DNA from: an uncultured Pelagibacteraceae bacterium
GTDB lineage: Bacteria > Pseudomonadota > Alphaproteobacteria > Pelagibacterales > AG-422-B15
Length of the DNA: 64,000 bases
NCBI GenBank assembly: GCA_902614655.1
Contig: CACMLX010000001.1
Span: 1-64,000, forward strand
Reading direction: 5' to 3'
The translations under genes and the position numbers were made by a program. The first letter of the stretch is position 1. Each line of letters begins with the position of its first letter. A model generated the notes under the pieces. The model did not search any database. It was not told where the DNA came from and saw only the letters and a program-made list of their open reading frames with translations. Positions 1,226-8,259 of the stretch are shown in pieces.

Positions 1226-2728
1226 TTTTTGGTCGTATTCTCCAACTTTACCAGTTTCATTTAAAAGTGTGTTAATGTATTTAAAAATCATTTTAACTTC
1301 TTCATTTGAAACAAGGCTTTCGATAACTATAACTAAAGATGGCTTATTTGATGACGCTCTGATTAATCCCCATGATCCATTGGATAAGCTAAATCTAATT
1401 CCATTTACTGTATTTGTTTGAACTATTTCACAATCAGCAACTTTTGTTTTATTTTTTTGGTCTTGAATTATTTTATTTATAATTTCATCTACGACCGCAT
1501 ATTTTTCTTCATCCTTACAGAAAGGCGCCATAGTAGGAGATTGATAGGAAGTATTTAAATTTGAATACAATTCAGACATACTCTTATTTTTATGGTGATC
1601 CAAATATTCAATCATCATAGAAGCTGATCTCAAACCATCGTCAAAGCCCAGTCCCAAGGGCTTACCAATGAAAAAATGACCACTTTTTTCAAAACCGCAT
1701 AAAGCATTTATTTCTTTAACTCGCCTCTTCATATGTGAGTGACCAGTCATCCACATATCAACAGTGCAATTATTTTTCTTCAAAATCTCATTATTAAAAA
1801 ATAAACCAGTCGACTTTACATCGATAACAAATTTTGAGCTTGAATATTTCTCAGATAAATACTCTGAAAGCATTAATCCTATTTTGTCAGAAAATATTTC
1901 ATTACCTTCATTGTCCACAACCCCAAGACGATCGCCATCGCCATCAAAAGCAAATCCTACATCTGCATTATTATCTTTTACGCTTTTTGCAAGATCATTA
2001 AGCATTGTTAGATCTTCTGGATTAGGATTATAATTAGGAAATTTAAAATCTAAATTGCAATGCAATTCAATTACTTCACATCCAAGGCTTCTTAACAAAT
2101 CAGGGGCAAATGCACCTGCTGTTCCATTACCACAAGCTAAAACAATTTTTAAATTTCTTTTTACTGATTGTGTGCCCTTTAGATATTTTAGATATGCTTC
2201 ACGAATACCATTTTTAAACTCGTAACCGCCGTTATTTGACGCAATAAAATCATGACTATTTTCAGTAATAGTTTTTATTTTTTTTATATCATCAGGACCA
2301 AATGTAAGTGATTTTTCTATTCCACATTTTATCCCAGTCCAACCATTTGCATTATGGCTTGCAGTTACCATAGCAAGACTATCGGTATCTAAGTGATGTT
2401 GGGCAAAGTATACCATTGGCGATAAAGCTAAACCAACATCGATTACTTTGAGACCGCTTGTCAATAACCCTTTTGTTAGATGGTACTTTACCTCAGTGCT
2501 GTATGATCTATAATCTTGACCAATAACGATTGATGAGCCTTGACCTTTAGAATTGCTTATATATTTTCCAAGGCTGTAACCAAATATTTCTAATCCTTTT
2601 TTGCTTATTTCTTCCGGATAAAGCCAACGTGCATCGTACTCTCTAAACCCGTTTGGAGATATTTGAGCCTTGTCTAAACTTTCGTTAAAATCAAAAGAAA
2701 GAGGTTTTTGATTTTCAAAAATTTCCAT
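1220..2728 (-). CDS. Phosphomannomutase/phosphoglucomutase
   Basis: A 502-residue alpha-D-phosphohexomutase. The active-site phosphoserine loop is TASHNANGWTG at residues 122-132 (Ser124 predicted to carry the phosphate). The metal-binding loop is DGDGDR at 262-267, and a sugar-binding loop FEKSGHFF follows near 350. The usual TASHNP is TASHNA here. These enzymes interconvert hexose-6- and hexose-1-phosphates (Man or Glc) for GDP-mannose, LPS and other polysaccharide precursors. The length fits the ManB/AlgC-type family rather than GlmM (about 445 residues). It is transcribed away from the cobalamin riboswitch and shares that intergenic region. Confidence 0.9.
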   Translation of the reverse strand: MEIFENQKPLSFDFNESLDKAQISPNGFREYDARWLYPEEISKKGLEIFGYSLGKYISNSKGQGSSIVIGQDYRSYSTEVKYHLTKGLLTSGLKVIDVGLALSPMVYFAQHHLDTDSLAMVTASHNANGWTGIKCGIEKSLTFGPDDIKKIKTITENSHDFIASNNGGYEFKNGIREAYLKYLKGTQSVKRNLKIVLACGNGTAGAFAPDLLRSLGCEVIELHCNLDFKFPNYNPNPEDLTMLNDLAKSVKDNNADVGFAFDGDGDRLGVVDNEGNEIFSDKIGLMLSEYLSEKYSSSKFVIDVKSTGLFFNNEILKKNNCTVDMWMTGHSHMKRRVKEINALCGFEKSGHFFIGKPLGLGFDDGLRSASMMIEYLDHHKNKSMSELYSNLNTSYQSPTMAPFCKDEEKYAVVDEIINKIIQDQKNKTKVADCEIVQTNTVNGIRFSLSNGSWGLIRASSNKPSLVIVIESLVSNEEVKMIFKYINTLLNETGKVGEYDQKL

Positions 2729-2769
2729 TTTTTTCTTGCTTTGTAATTTCGAATATACAATAGTTTCAA

Positions 2770-2994
2770 TGTTGGTTCACGTAAAGTGAATAACAGGGAA
2801 TAAGGTTTAAAGCCTTAACTGTACCCGCAACTGTAACTCTGGAATTTAAGTACAGATACCACTGATTAATCGGGAAGGTGTGCTTAAGTAGTGATGGAGA
2901 AGTCAGGAGACCTACCAACAAAGCATAGTCATCCACAAGTGATCGGGATAATCATTTGGACATTATGTTTGCGGTGACTTCTAACTGGAGGCAA
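2770..2994 (+). promoter_or_regulatory. Cobalamin (B12) riboswitch, probably translational
   Basis: The 5' leader of the TonB receptor carries conserved cobalamin-aptamer blocks in order: a GGTTCAC start, CAGGGAA, the L5 segment TACCCGCAACTGTAA (2822-2836), CCACTG, TCGGGAAGG, then the core AGTCAGGAGACCTACC (2901-2916). Downstream, TTGCGG at 2969-2974 is exactly complementary to CCGCAA at 2825-2830, as expected for the L5-L13 kissing loop. The kissing element sits about 10 bases before the Shine-Dalgarno CTGGAGG. In addition, AGAAGTCA (2898-2905) is a perfect complement of TGACTTCT (2975-2982), a plausible alternative pairing. No hairpin plus T-run is present, so ligand most likely blocks ribosome access. 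Confidence 0.93.
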
Positions 2995-2996
2995 AG

Positions 2997-5228
2997 ATGA
3001 CTAAGATGACCAAAAGACTATTATTCTCAATAATTATATTTCTTACTTTTATTAATAATATAAGTGCTGAAACGCCGGAAATTCTCATAAACCCTAGCAG
3101 TGAAGAGTACACTCGACTTTCATCCGGCTTAGCTGGATCAAATATCACTATAATCTCAAAAGAAGAACTCAAATTATATCAAAACAAATCCTTGCCAAAA
3201 ATAATAGAAAGCTATTCAGGTATTTCTACGAGAACAACGGCATCTGGATATGACGGAGTATACACCACATTAGACATGCGGGGTTTTGGAGAAACAGCGA
3301 AATCAAATACTCTGATTCTAATTAATGGTAGACGCCTCAATGACGTTGATATGTCAACCATAAACTCTCATATACCCACAGAGAGCATTGAAAGAATTGA
3401 GATAATAAGAGGAGGATCAGCTGCGACATTGTACGGTTCAGGTGCAGTCGGAGGTGCAATTAACATCGTTACAAACAATAAGGATATAATTAATTCTCTT
3501 AAAACCTCAATTGGTTCATATGGCAATAAAAGTGCGGATATATCATTATTCACTAAAATAAACGATCAGAGTTCTGTTGGTCTTTTTGGATCTCAAACTA
3601 CAAACAGTAATTACCGAGATGCATCAGATTTTGATGAAAGTAATATTTTATTAAATATGAATCATAAAGTTGAAGATATAACTTTAAATATAGACGTGAT
3701 GTCGATGGAAAATGAAAAAGATCTCCCAGGTGGAAGAATCAAAGGGGGTGAAGTTTATAATTACCATATTTGTAACCGCTACGAAGACAGCAAGACAGCA
3801 AGAAACATAGGTGGAAGCACATTAGAAAATGGAGACTCATGTAATACGGAACGACGAGTAGATTATGCTAATACTGAAATGGACTCAATTAACGCCAGTG
3901 TTGTTGTTCCTCTAAATGATATGAATAAGATTTTTATTAACACTGGCTACAGAGATAAAACAGATAAATCTTTTTTCGGAGCCAACGCAAATACAGCGTC
4001 TACCCCAAATAACAGTGATAGATATACAGTCACAACAATCGACGGAAATACTTTTAATTCCAGATACGAGACAAAGCAAGTTAATGAAACTCACTCTAAT
4101 ATCTTAAGCATAGGATATGACTTTGCACATTCTTTTTATGACTCAACAAAACACAGAAAAGAAGATGAGGCAATGGGACAACAAATTTTTGCCAATCTAA
4201 AGGTCAGATCATTATATTTTCAAAATACTGCATATGTAAATGAAAGTGACCTTACAATTTCATTGGGGTATAGAGATGAAAAAAGTATGTTTGGAGCTCG
4301 TGATGACATCGATAAAACAGCTCCTGGTTTTGCTGACGTTGACTACGGTGAGTATGGAATTTACCCAGTCATTTATGATATGACAACTCATAACGATACA
4401 ACGAGCAATCAGGCATTCAATGTTGGTTTTGAAAAAAAATTAAATAGAGGTCTCTCTTTGTATGCAAGTTATGCCGAGTCTTTTCGAATTCCTAATATTG
4501 ATGAAAGAGTTGGCTCTTCGAACCTTAAGACAACCTTTGATCTAAAACCTCAGGAGTCTGAGGGTTACGATATTGGAGTCAGATATTTCACAGATAAACT
4601 TAATTTAGATGTTAGTTATTATTCAATCGATACAACAAATGAAATACAATATAGAAATGGTATAAATACAAATGTAGATCCGATTGAGCGTAAGGGCTTT
4701 GATATTGATTTTGGATATAGTCTTGATCAATCTAATAAGTTAAAGGGATCGTTTAGTTATACTGTTGCTGAGTTTACTTCCGGAACACTTACGCCGGGAG
4801 TAAGTACTTATGGAGAAACATTTGCACCTAATACGTGGCAAAATCTCTTAGGTGGAGTTGATACATTAAATTTAAGAGGTAAATCAGTACCACTTATTTC
4901 ACCAATACAATTTACTTTAGCTTATGAAACTGAAGTGAGAAACAATTTAACACTTGATTTAGAATTGAATTATTTAGATAAAAAATATGTTTCGAATGAT
5001 GAAGAAAATATAGAGCCGCAGATACCAGATTATTATATTGTAAATTCGTACTTTAGTTTTGATGATAAAAACTACACACTTAATTTTGGCGTAAACAATT
5101 TATTTGATGAAGCGACATACGATTATGCAGTTTCAAGTACTTTTCATAATGACGCACATTACGGATTATCCAATGTATACCCATTACCAGAACGAAATTT
5201 ATTCTTTAATTTTGGATATACTTTTTGA
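2997..5228 (+). CDS. TonB-dependent outer-membrane receptor, BtuB-like
   Basis: A 743-residue outer-membrane receptor. Residues 1-24 form a signal peptide ending NISA. The plug domain contains SIERIEIIRGGSAATLYGSG (from about 130) followed by AVGGAINIV, the hallmark of TonB-gated transporters. The C-terminus ends in aromatic FNFGYTF, typical of a barrel recognised by BAM. Start ATG 2997 has a good CTGGAGG site; a second in-frame ATG nine bases on is possible. The cobalamin riboswitch directly upstream points to cobalamin or a related corrinoid as ligand, driven by TonB-ExbBD from elsewhere. Vitamin specificity is inferred from the switch, not from the protein itself. Confidence 0.9.
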   Translation: MTKMTKRLLFSIIIFLTFINNISAETPEILINPSSEEYTRLSSGLAGSNITIISKEELKLYQNKSLPKIIESYSGISTRTTASGYDGVYTTLDMRGFGETAKSNTLILINGRRLNDVDMSTINSHIPTESIERIEIIRGGSAATLYGSGAVGGAINIVTNNKDIINSLKTSIGSYGNKSADISLFTKINDQSSVGLFGSQTTNSNYRDASDFDESNILLNMNHKVEDITLNIDVMSMENEKDLPGGRIKGGEVYNYHICNRYEDSKTARNIGGSTLENGDSCNTERRVDYANTEMDSINASVVVPLNDMNKIFINTGYRDKTDKSFFGANANTASTPNNSDRYTVTTIDGNTFNSRYETKQVNETHSNILSIGYDFAHSFYDSTKHRKEDEAMGQQIFANLKVRSLYFQNTAYVNESDLTISLGYRDEKSMFGARDDIDKTAPGFADVDYGEYGIYPVIYDMTTHNDTTSNQAFNVGFEKKLNRGLSLYASYAESFRIPNIDERVGSSNLKTTFDLKPQESEGYDIGVRYFTDKLNLDVSYYSIDTTNEIQYRNGINTNVDPIERKGFDIDFGYSLDQSNKLKGSFSYTVAEFTSGTLTPGVSTYGETFAPNTWQNLLGGVDTLNLRGKSVPLISPIQFTLAYETEVRNNLTLDLELNYLDKKYVSNDEENIEPQIPDYYIVNSYFSFDDKNYTLNFGVNNLFDEATYDYAVSSTFHNDAHYGLSNVYPLPERNLFFNFGYTF

Positions 5229-5252
5229 TATAGAGGAGATATAAATTATTAA

Positions 5253-5771
5253 ATGCAAATTAATAAAAAAATTATTTTTGGTATTTCAATAGTATTTGTA
5301 TTGGCATTAAGCAGGGTACTGCCTCATCCTCCTAATTTTACGCCAATATTAGGAATGGCTTTTTTTGCAGGTGCCGTATTTGATAAAAAAGTATTGGCAT
5401 ATTTTATTCCAATTCTAGCAATGTTGGTTAGTGATTTATATTTAGGTTTTCATGCTGGTATGCCAATAATTTATTTTGCTATTTGTGTGTGTGTATTGAT
5501 TGGTACTTTTTTTCACTCAAAGTTAAATCTAACTACTTCATTTTTAGGAATTAGCGCAGGTGTAATATCTTTTTATTTAATATCAAATTTTGCTGTTTGG
5601 TATGGATCAGGAATGTATGCTTCTGATTTGAATGGACTAATCACTTGCTACATAATGGCCCTGCCATTTTTGCAAAATACATTTTTATCAAGCATTTTCT
5701 ATGGTATGGCCGCTTGTGTATTATATTTAATGGCTGATAAACATCTAAAATTTAGCGCAAAACAGGCCTAA
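5253..5771 (+). CDS. DUF6580-family putative transport membrane protein
   Basis: A 172-residue protein with about five hydrophobic helices. The N-terminal signature SRVLPHPPNFTPILGMAFFAGA (residues about 21-42) and the following AMLVSDLYLGFH match the family called DUF6580, annotated as a putative transporter and resembling in size and plan the substrate-binding S component of ECF transporters. It starts 24 bp after the receptor stop with GAGGAGAT upstream, so it is probably on the same B12-switched transcript. The context suggests inner-membrane passage of the corrinoid brought in by the receptor, because no BtuC, BtuD or BtuF is in the window. The biochemical role is unproven. Confidence 0.75.
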   Translation: MQINKKIIFGISIVFVLALSRVLPHPPNFTPILGMAFFAGAVFDKKVLAYFIPILAMLVSDLYLGFHAGMPIIYFAICVCVLIGTFFHSKLNLTTSFLGISAGVISFYLISNFAVWYGSGMYASDLNGLITCYIMALPFLQNTFLSSIFYGMAACVLYLMADKHLKFSAKQA

Positions 5772-5834
5772 AAGAATATTGAAAAGCTTTTTTTTTAACA
5801 TTATATAATTATAAATACAATTTTAGGAGATTCT

Positions 5835-7037
5835 ATGGATACCGCGTTTTCAAATGAAGATTTAAAGTTTCAAAGTGAAATAAGGGATTTTATTAAAACA
5901 AATTACCCACAAGAACTCAGAGATTCAATCAATTCAAAAAGAAAACTAGGTAAAGAACTCTCGAGAGAAGATCTTACGGCTTGGCATAAGATTTTAGGAA
6001 AGCACAATGGTTGGTCAGCACCAAGTTGGCCTAAACAGTATGGTGGGGCAGAATTTACTCCTACACAAAAATATATTTTCGAGCAAGAATGCGCAAAAGC
6101 TGAATGTCAATATATTATGCCATTTGGAATAAATATGGTCGGCCCAGTAATTTATACATTCGGAAATGAGGAGCAAAAAGCCCAACACTTGCCTGGAATT
6201 TTGAGTGGTGAAGTTTTTTGGTGTCAGGGTTATTCAGAACCTGGCTCAGGTTCGGATCTTGCTTCATTAAAAACGAGTGCCGTGAAAGAAGGTGACCATT
6301 ATATCGTTAATGGACAAAAAACATGGACTACAATGGCACAGTATGCAGATTGGATCTTTTGTTTAGTAAGAACCAATCCTGATGCAGAAAAACCTCAACA
6401 AGGCATTTCATTCCTTTTGATTGATATGAAAACTCCCGGTGTAACAGTTAGACCTATCAGGCTTATGGATGGAACTCATGAGGTGAATGAAACTTGGTTT
6501 GATAATGTCAAAGTTCCAGTAGAAAATTTAATTGGTCAAGAAAATATGGGTTGGACGTATGCAAAATTTTTATTAGCTCATGAAAGATCAGGTATTGCCG
6601 GTGTTGCAAGATCAAAGAAAGCAATAGAAAGAATAAAACAGATTGCTAGTTCTGAAATGTCATACGGCGAACCTTTAATTCAAGACCCAGCATTTAAAGC
6701 AAAAATAGCAGCTGCAGAATTAGAGTTATCAGCACTTGAATACACAGAATTAAGAACGCTTGCAAAGGACTCTGCTGGTAAAGGTCCTGGGCCAGAGTCT
6801 TCTCTTTTGAAGATTAAGGGAACAGATATTCAGCAAGCTGTTACTGAGTTGGCTATGGAAGCTGTTGGATATTACGCAAATCCTCACCTTGGCACGACTT
6901 TGAGTAATGAATATGTCGGTCCAGATTATGCTACTAATCTATCAGGAACATACTTTAACTTTCGTAAGGCATCCATTTATGGAGGATCTAACGAAATTCA
7001 AAGAAATATCATAGCTAAAATGGTCCTAGGTCTTTAG
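5835..7037 (+). CDS. Acyl-CoA dehydrogenase, catalytic-type subunit
   Basis: A 400-residue flavoenzyme with the full three-part acyl-CoA dehydrogenase plan. The FAD/substrate loop YSEPGSGSDLASLK is at 133-146, the mid beta-domain carries QKTWTTMAQYADWIFCLVR, and the end is YGGSNEIQRNIIAKMVLGL. AGGAGAT lies 6 bp before ATG. It is followed 43 bp later by a second, divergent acyl-CoA dehydrogenase. This side-by-side pairing of an intact copy with one lacking standard FAD-loop residues is the arrangement of alpha2beta2 acyl-CoA dehydrogenases known from bacterial steroid side-chain degradation. Oxidation of acyl-CoA is secure; the substrate and heteromer are inferences. Confidence 0.88.
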   Translation: MDTAFSNEDLKFQSEIRDFIKTNYPQELRDSINSKRKLGKELSREDLTAWHKILGKHNGWSAPSWPKQYGGAEFTPTQKYIFEQECAKAECQYIMPFGINMVGPVIYTFGNEEQKAQHLPGILSGEVFWCQGYSEPGSGSDLASLKTSAVKEGDHYIVNGQKTWTTMAQYADWIFCLVRTNPDAEKPQQGISFLLIDMKTPGVTVRPIRLMDGTHEVNETWFDNVKVPVENLIGQENMGWTYAKFLLAHERSGIAGVARSKKAIERIKQIASSEMSYGEPLIQDPAFKAKIAAAELELSALEYTELRTLAKDSAGKGPGPESSLLKIKGTDIQQAVTELAMEAVGYYANPHLGTTLSNEYVGPDYATNLSGTYFNFRKASIYGGSNEIQRNIIAKMVLGL

Positions 7038-7080
7038 TACCTTTTGACATCTTTACTGTCATAACTTATAACGCTTTTTT

Positions 7081-8259
7081 ATGAATTTTGATTACACCGA
7101 GGAACAGACCTTGCTCGACAACATGGTTACTTCTTTTGTAAGAGATAATTATGATTGGGACACGCGTTGCAATATAGTTAAATCAGAAGAGGGATGGAAA
7201 GAAGAAAATTGGAAACAATTTGCGGAACTTGGTCTTCTAGGCGTTCCATTTGATGAAGCTTATGGAGGGCTTGGTGGCAAATCTGCTGATTTAATGATTG
7301 TAATGGAACAGTTTGGAAAAGGACTGGTTGTTGAACCATATTTACCAACAGTAATATTAGCTGGTGGGTTGATATCAAAACTTGGATCTGAGGAACAAAA
7401 GAATTCGATTATACCAGAAATAATCTCAGGCAATATAAGATGTGCGTTTGCATATGCAGAACCACAAAGTAGATTTGATTTAAATGATGTTAAAACGTCA
7501 GCAGTACTTAACGGAAATGACTATGTATTAAACGGTTTTAAGTCGGTGGTATTTGGAGCAGGCATGGCTTCACACTTAATAATTTCTGCTAGAACTGACT
7601 CAGAGCAAAGGTCTGAGTCTGGAATTACATTATTTATTGTTGATACAAAGTCTGAGGGACTTACACTGCAAAATTATCCAACAATTGATGAATACAGAGC
7701 CTCTGAAGTTATTATTGAGAATCTAAAAGTTTCAAAAGATAATGTTTTAGGAAAAGTTAATATGGCTTATGATGCCATTGAGGAAATTGTAGATATAAGC
7801 ACTATTGCTGCATGCTCTGAAGCAGTTGGTATCTTGCAAGTTTTAAAAGACTCTACAACTGAATATTGCAAAAATAGGAAACAATTCGGACAGTCAATTG
7901 CTAAAAATCAGGTTATACAACACCGTCTTGTGGATATGATGATTGAGTATGAACAGGCAAAGTCAATTCTTTACATGGCAGTCACAGCAGATTTGACTAA
8001 TTCAGATGAACGAAGAAGAACAGTGTCAGCTGCTAAAGCACGTATAGGTAAAGCAATAAAATTTGTAGGCGAAAGCGCTATTCAATTGCATGGCGGAATG
8101 GGCGTTGTTGATGAATATATGGTAAGCCACTATTTTAAAAGAGCGACAATGATTGGAGTACTATTTGGAAATACTGACTATCATATGAAAAGATATATGA
8201 CACTTACCCAATCTGGCATTCCATCATCTGACGAAGTAATTTCAGTTAGTGTTACTTAA
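7081..8259 (+). CDS. Acyl-CoA dehydrogenase-like protein, probable partner subunit
   Basis: A 392-residue acyl-CoA dehydrogenase fold. The usual TEP-x-G/A-SD loop has become YAEPQSRFDL (near 121), so several FAD/substrate contacts are not standard. The C-terminal helices are well kept: QLHGGMGVVDEYMVSHYFKR near 338-357, followed by GNTDYHMKRY. There is no clear Shine-Dalgarno before the ATG, but the gene lies only 43 bp after the preceding dehydrogenase in the same orientation. The probable role is the second subunit of a mixed complex with that enzyme. It could instead be an independent enzyme for an unusual acyl-CoA. Confidence 0.82.
   Translation: MNFDYTEEQTLLDNMVTSFVRDNYDWDTRCNIVKSEEGWKEENWKQFAELGLLGVPFDEAYGGLGGKSADLMIVMEQFGKGLVVEPYLPTVILAGGLISKLGSEEQKNSIIPEIISGNIRCAFAYAEPQSRFDLNDVKTSAVLNGNDYVLNGFKSVVFGAGMASHLIISARTDSEQRSESGITLFIVDTKSEGLTLQNYPTIDEYRASEVIIENLKVSKDNVLGKVNMAYDAIEEIVDISTIAACSEAVGILQVLKDSTTEYCKNRKQFGQSIAKNQVIQHRLVDMMIEYEQAKSILYMAVTADLTNSDERRRTVSAAKARIGKAIKFVGESAIQLHGGMGVVDEYMVSHYFKRATMIGVLFGNTDYHMKRYMTLTQSGIPSSDEVISVSVT

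Follow-up and report, generated by a model that had tools for sequence, protein, structure and literature searches.

A cobalamin riboswitch operon in a Pelagibacteraceae genome suggests DUF6580 proteins as candidate stand-alone corrinoid importers

The stretch of DNA analysed here, referred to as the window, comprises 64,000 bp at the beginning of contig C1 of an uncultured Pelagibacteraceae bacterium (GCA_902614655.1, designated G000; assembly size 1.08 Mb, 83% complete). It contains a compact operon consisting of a cobalamin (vitamin B12) riboswitch, a gene for a TonB-dependent outer-membrane receptor and a gene for a small membrane protein of the family DUF6580 (Pfam PF20221), whose function was previously unknown. 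The original prediction, which was made from the sequence alone, had named these three elements, and the family searches bore it out: the riboswitch score was far above the RF00174 gathering score of 31.5, the receptor matched the Plug and beta-barrel domains, and the DUF6580 protein, whose open reading frame begins 24 bp past the receptor stop codon, scored 146.4 bits against a curated cut-off of 27 (Table 1). Scanning of the whole assembly revealed a single RF00174 copy and a single DUF6580 gene. No plus-strand terminator-like site was found within positions 2600–5900, and so none ahead of the DUF6580 gene, which agrees with the transcript that the prediction had assumed; the gene thus probably shares the riboswitch transcript with the receptor.

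The pairing across the start codon of the receptor gene was present in both the minimum free energy and the centroid folds and suggests translational control of the receptor; the z-score of the whole sequence was −1.62, so that its stability is not unusual. The receptor itself fell below the cut-offs of the BtuB equivalog models (TIGR01779, 70.8 versus 599.7 bits; NF007926, 88.3 versus 836 bits) and scored better on heme-receptor models than on TIGR01779. The clearly BtuB-like receptors of loci L122 and L131 likewise fall below these cut-offs. The label "BtuB" for the window receptor is owed to the riboswitch and not to the receptor sequence.

Table 1. Features of the window operon and of DUF6580 loci in other genomes.
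Locus	Feature or gene order	Position	Strand	Evidence
Window	Cobalamin riboswitch aptamer (RF00174)	2756–2933	+	cmscan 110.9 bits, E = 6.2e-27, full model (1–189)
Window	Putative expression platform	2927–3003	+	TAGTCATC (2927–2934) pairing with GATGACTA (2996–3003) across the receptor start codon
Window	TonB-dependent outer-membrane receptor, presumed corrinoid receptor, 743 aa	2997–5228	+	Plug E = 1e-19, beta-barrel E = 1.7e-30
Window	Ribosome-binding site GAGGAG of the DUF6580 gene	5233–5238	+	Read from the sequence
Window	DUF6580 (PF20221) protein, 172 aa, six predicted transmembrane helices	5253–5771	+	Pfam E = 1.1e-42
Window	Family signature, codons 21–31 (R21..P24-H25-P26-P27-N28-F29-T30-P31)	5313–5345	+	Alignments A1 and A2
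L122, L135 (Gammaproteobacteria)	Riboswitch, BtuB, PduO adenosyltransferase, sugar kinase, DUF6580			
L144 (Ignavibacteriae)	Riboswitch, BtuB, PP-loop protein, BtuF-like protein, DUF6580			
L132 (Verrucomicrobia)	Riboswitch, BtuB, PP-loop protein, DUF6580, BtuF-like protein			
L131 (Deltaproteobacteria)	Riboswitch, TonB, riboswitch, BtuB, DUF6580			
L098 (Levybacteria, Candidate Phyla Radiation)	Adenosylcobalamin-dependent ribonucleotide reductase, AdoCbl-II riboswitch, DUF6580, adenosyltransferase			
L128 (Roizmanbacteria)	Ribonucleotide reductase, adenosyltransferase-family gene, DUF6580			
L041 (G109)	DUF6580, first copy	5083–5595		
L042 (G109)	DUF6580, second copy	6658–7170		
L104 (Ignavibacteria)	Secreted beta-propeller-like protein	4045–5361		
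L107 (Ignavibacteria)	Secreted beta-propeller-like protein	4049–5404		
L093 (Roizmanbacteria)	Cobalamin riboswitch	6089–6253		

DUF6580 was found in 58 of 147 genomes of the order Pelagibacterales. The closest named relatives of G000 are single-cell genomes labelled Pelagibacteraceae (SAR11), and L081–L083 encode a DUF6580 protein of 94–96% identity. In the family of the window, each of the 26 complete loci that were fetched has a B12 riboswitch, a receptor-sized gene and DUF6580 in this order, separated by −1 to 71 bp; a 27th locus, cut by a contig end, was left out. The receptors of three of these loci (L057, L060 and L068) are only about 27–29% identical to the window receptor over the alignable part, so the receptor slot is kept while the receptor itself changes. 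Genomes of this family that lack DUF6580 lack the riboswitch too (G006, G031, G057, G061, G085 and G089), with the exception of G087, in which a riboswitch is present without DUF6580 and the contig ends about 1.1 kb past the switch. In a second family of the order DUF6580 keeps its receptor, but the riboswitch belongs to another class, adenosylcobalamin (AdoCbl)-II (RF01689), located on the same strand about 2 kb upstream of DUF6580, ahead of the receptor. It was detected above the cut-off in 8 of 12 DUF6580-positive and in none of 82 DUF6580-negative genomes (Fisher p = 4e-9). The presence of two riboswitch classes on one gene pair argues against a frozen accident of descent, and, given its conservation across relatives, the layout is not due to chance.

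Two further arrangements were seen within the order. At L048, a gene for a radical S-adenosylmethionine B12-binding protein directly follows DUF6580. The SAR11-type genome G109 has two DUF6580 copies; the riboswitch and receptor accompany the L042 copy only, and the L041 copy is oriented divergently from a gene encoding a B12-binding protein.

DUF6580 occurs across many phyla, including Candidate Phyla Radiation bacteria: a scan of a genome collection gave at least 561 relatives, the best 80 of which were read. Among 55 loci scanned with Rfam, nearly all of them from outside the order, 15 contained a B12 riboswitch (14 RF00174 and one AdoCbl-II). The expected number of RF00174 hits in these loci was about 0.16, calculated from the density in 26 of the genomes; since these 26 non-order genomes were partly chosen for riboswitch-bearing loci, this value is too high rather than too low. 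Other B12-related genes recur near DUF6580 as well, namely those for the PduO-type adenosyltransferase family (L098, L122, L128, L135 and L136), the AdoCbl-dependent ribonucleotide reductase family NrdJ (L098, L128 and L142), BtuB-like receptors with TIGR01779 as the best match (L104, L122, L131, L132, L144 and L153) and a BtuF-like binding protein (L132, L144 and L154). The link to B12 switches that had been predicted therefore exists in relatives and far beyond them, although not at every locus, as most Bacteroidota loci scanned have no switch. Likewise, the proposed role as the inner-membrane step for B12 found support; the system is not confined to streamlined marine bacteria.

In Levybacteria, Roizmanbacteria and Berkelbacteria (L098, L128, L142 and L093), a reductase of the AdoCbl-dependent type, an adenosyltransferase and/or a B12 riboswitch lie near DUF6580, which may be the B12 import route of these Candidate Phyla Radiation bacteria. 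At L093, a cobalamin riboswitch begins at the end of the DUF6580 gene and is followed by a gene for a 379-aa protein with no Pfam or NCBIfam match. In several B12 loci under riboswitch control (L112, L132, L144 and L154), DUF6580 is accompanied by a PP-loop protein of the Diphthami_syn_2 family. In two Ignavibacteria loci (L104 and L107), a secreted beta-propeller-like protein is encoded between BtuB and DUF6580. This protein might bind B12 at the cell surface in the manner of BtuG; the matches of the L104 protein were to an S-layer beta-propeller (1L0Q) and DUF5074, not to BtuG itself.

Many Gram-negative bacteria that require B12 lack BtuCDF although they encode BtuB, and for most prokaryotes the protein that takes B12 through the inner membrane has yet to be identified (PMC6072759). 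The T component of energy-coupling factor (ECF) transporters (CbiQ/EcfT) was not found in any of 28 genomes of the order, including G000 and the 100% complete genome G002 of the same genus, nor in 26 other DUF6580 genomes from outside the order; in a control search, it was found in 10 of 14 well-known genomes. A search of 20 genomes, G002 not among them, for FecCD-type (BtuC) permeases revealed none in G000. The one FecCD match in G000 (L039, 27.5 bits) reads as ZnuB located beside a ZnuC-like ATPase. At the 83% completeness of the assembly, this agrees with the absence of a full BtuCDF that had been expected. FecCD was also absent or weak in 24 of the 26 diverse DUF6580 genomes, a biased sample because the genomes were partly picked for riboswitch-bearing loci. 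The weak match in G162 was attributed to a zinc/manganese (ZnuB-type) permease by its sequence and neighbours. In the genome of L144, the sole FecCD match was below the cut-off and reads as a zinc/manganese permease, so that DUF6580 appears to stand where BtuCD would be.

A demand for B12 is evident in G000, which encodes NrdJ (568 bits) and methylmalonyl-CoA mutase with an adjoining MeaB-like GTPase. In the second family, B12-binding proteins were found in six of seven DUF6580-positive genomes (five over the cut-off and G001 just below it), whereas none of 13 DUF6580-negative genomes had one over the cut-off, and three had weak matches below it (p = 2e-4, G001 being counted among the six).

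The DUF6580 protein of the window was modelled using AlphaFold 2 with 69 window and locus sequences, which led to a model with high confidence (mean predicted local distance difference test 93.9, predicted template modelling score 0.89). Transmembrane helices were predicted at residues 5–22, 32–42, 46–64, 70–86, 93–119 and 137–165. By this prediction the protein has the six helices and the two cytoplasmic ends of an ECF S-component. The share of lysine and arginine per residue was 0.21–0.30 in the predicted inside segments and 0.00–0.02 in the outside loops, in line with the positive-inside rule. In a Foldseek search against the PDB, the top four matches were ECF S-components, namely PanT, a FolT-type protein, the S chain of a pantothenate transporter and the S-component of an ECF transporter, with probabilities of 0.82–0.98; the next among the matches listed reached at most 0.30. 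In addition, individual DUF6580 members have two S-component families, PF12822 (E = 1.1e-4) and PF07155 (E = 0.002), among their best secondary Pfam hits, below curated cut-offs. The resemblance to S-components that had been guessed from size and helix plan is thus independently supported by the model and by the profile matches. The DUF6580 profile matched only one chain among the PDB sequences (E-values up to 10), chain A of 6FNP (E = 0.83, about 140 residues aligned), and the window protein alone gave no match there. There is no NCBIfam family for DUF6580, and in a literature search, with most subscription papers and all preprints outside its scope, the family was mentioned nowhere.

Ten positions are invariant in the 69 sequences from many phyla: R21, P24, H25, D61, G65, F107, N112, F113, G128 and F139. 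The family signature sits at the end of the first helix and in loop L1, a region predicted to face the periplasm. When the two halves were delimited manually on the basis of the predicted helices, 25 of 90 positions are conserved in the predicted outer half versus 4 of 66 in the inner half. In S-components, the substrate is held at the periplasmic face. The predicted loop 3 (65–69) contains G65 and F/H but no conserved cysteine (C132 is a cysteine in 54 of the 69 sequences), which makes the invariant loop-1 residue His25 a natural candidate that could serve as the axial ligand to cobalt.

All these characteristics allow us to assume, with good though not full confidence, that DUF6580 is a stand-alone, S-component-like corrinoid importer of a B12 salvage operon, a functional analogue of BtuM rather than a member of the BtuM family. 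The sequence data establish the riboswitch, the operon layout, its conserved linkage, the lack of EcfT and the B12-dependent enzymes, with no BtuC gene found; the S-component fold, the transport with its substrate, energy source and mechanism, and the ligand residue are inferred. A number of observations weigh against this assumption. The likeness to the S-component fold is remote (Foldseek E-values of 0.13 or more, TM-scores of 0.40–0.56), neither BtuM (6FFV) nor 6FNP was among the 50 fold matches listed, and the sequence match to 6FNP is not significant alone. No B12 riboswitch was present in the stretch read in 40 of the 55 diverse loci, including most of the Bacteroidota loci scanned; many Bacteroidota and Ignavibacteria loci have unrelated neighbours, e.g., MutL and GyrA, and the riboswitch of L108 and L126 serves a different gene. 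Three DUF6580-positive genomes (G170–G172, from Flavobacteriaceae, Kapaibacterium and Ignavibacteria) have no RF00174 genome-wide, which may point to more than one substrate within the family. At the switch-less Bacteroidota loci, many of them with housekeeping genes as neighbours, the gene would be expressed without regulation, unless the family has other substrates. A full FecCD permease occurs in two of the 26 genomes, those of Fibrella and Larkinella. Finally, G006, which is 98% complete and belongs to the family of the window, has B12 enzymes but neither the switch nor DUF6580, which may reflect an assembly gap or another importer.

Other explanations were considered. Genome context tells the pathway and not the reaction, so DUF6580 could act in the B12 pathway as a membrane enzyme or chaperone that removes or alters a ligand, or as a transporter of cobalt or of the lower-ligand base, while the corrinoid enters through another, unrecognised importer. 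BtuM itself changes its substrate by decyanation (PMC6072759), and the invariant His, Asp and Asn of DUF6580 could serve catalysis. However, the commonest partner of DUF6580 is an outer-membrane receptor behind a switch, DUF6580 is the sole inner-membrane protein of the operon, at L144 it comes after a BtuF-like binding protein in the absence of BtuCD, and its S-component-like fold and periplasmic conservation fit an importer better; we therefore regard such a role as unlikely.

The same fold, together with the weak matches to S-component families, would also suit a genuine ECF S-component working with a borrowed ATPase module whose T component has escaped recognition, and the B12 S-component CbrT does depend on its module (PMC5997447). 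The lack of CbiQ/EcfT in both genome sets, set against the control search, makes this very improbable. We give still less credit to the transport of an unrelated solute, with the adjacency to B12 genes arising by chance or by shared spread of the locus. The many loci outside Pelagibacterales that carry no B12 signal would be accounted for in this way, but not the two riboswitch classes, the divergent receptors in one slot and the varied B12 partners in distant phyla, far over expectation.

If DUF6580 is a corrinoid importer, the operon could work as follows. At low cellular B12, the riboswitch would permit synthesis of the receptor and presumably of DUF6580 too. The receptor would carry the corrinoid over the outer membrane into the periplasm using TonB energy, and DUF6580 would bind it at the periplasmic face via the conserved loops L1, L3 and L5 and move it through the inner membrane with neither an ECF module nor BtuCD, as is thought for BtuM. 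It has been suggested that BtuM works by facilitated diffusion and that an adenosyltransferase traps the substrate (PMC6072759). Net uptake would be driven by the intracellular use of the corrinoid, in G000 by methylmalonyl-CoA mutase and the NrdJ-type ribonucleotide reductase. In other phyla, the cofactor could be trapped by an adenosyltransferase encoded nearby, and the recurrent adenosyltransferase neighbours of DUF6580 fit this idea.

More tentatively, and with somewhat less than even confidence, DUF6580 could represent a further, phylogenetically very broad family of module-free corrinoid importers of the S-component type. Such proteins would bind cobalt via the conserved loop-1 His instead of the Cys of BtuM, displace BtuCD in many Gram-negative bacteria and import B12 in those Candidate Phyla Radiation bacteria that rely on an AdoCbl-dependent ribonucleotide reductase. 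If the importer role is true, the distribution of DUF6580 would fill part of the gap in inner-membrane B12 importers, would account for the supply of a cofactor needed for DNA synthesis to some ocean bacteria of the SAR11 type and to Candidate Phyla Radiation cells, and would make B12 dependence predictable from genomes.

A comparison with known systems indicated that BtuCDF performs the step proposed for DUF6580, the passage of B12 through the inner membrane after BtuB, and is likewise controlled by a cobalamin riboswitch. However, it is an ATP-binding cassette transporter with a FecCD-type permease, none of which was found in G000, and the window operon has one small protein in its place. 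CbrT, the S-component of ECF-CbrT (PDB 6FNP; PMC5997447), is also linked to B12, and 6FNP chain A (182 aa), which was taken as CbrT by its size and description, was the sole PDB profile match mentioned above; it differs in requiring its ECF module, whereas DUF6580 genomes have no EcfT, and the match had an E-value of only 0.83. The closest parallel is BtuM of Thiobacillus denitrificans (PDB 6FFV; PMC6072759), with which E. coli cells that lack MetE, BtuF and BtuC can grow in a B12-dependent manner. As predicted for DUF6580, it is a protein of about 20 kDa of the six-helix S-component type; like DUF6580, it has no ECF module, is encoded near btuB and an adenosyltransferase gene, and occurs in Gram-negative hosts without BtuCD; the DUF6580 genomes searched share with BtuM hosts the lack of an ECF module. 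The profile search of PDB sequences gave no BtuM match, assuming that 6FFV is in that set. The essential cysteine of BtuM, the cobalt-binding Cys80, lies in loop 3 (PMC6072759) and is absent in DUF6580. In its stead, DUF6580 has the invariant loop-1 His and, in loop 3, a GFH that is mostly conserved. In addition, DUF6580 is found in more phyla than BtuM, including Candidate Phyla Radiation bacteria.

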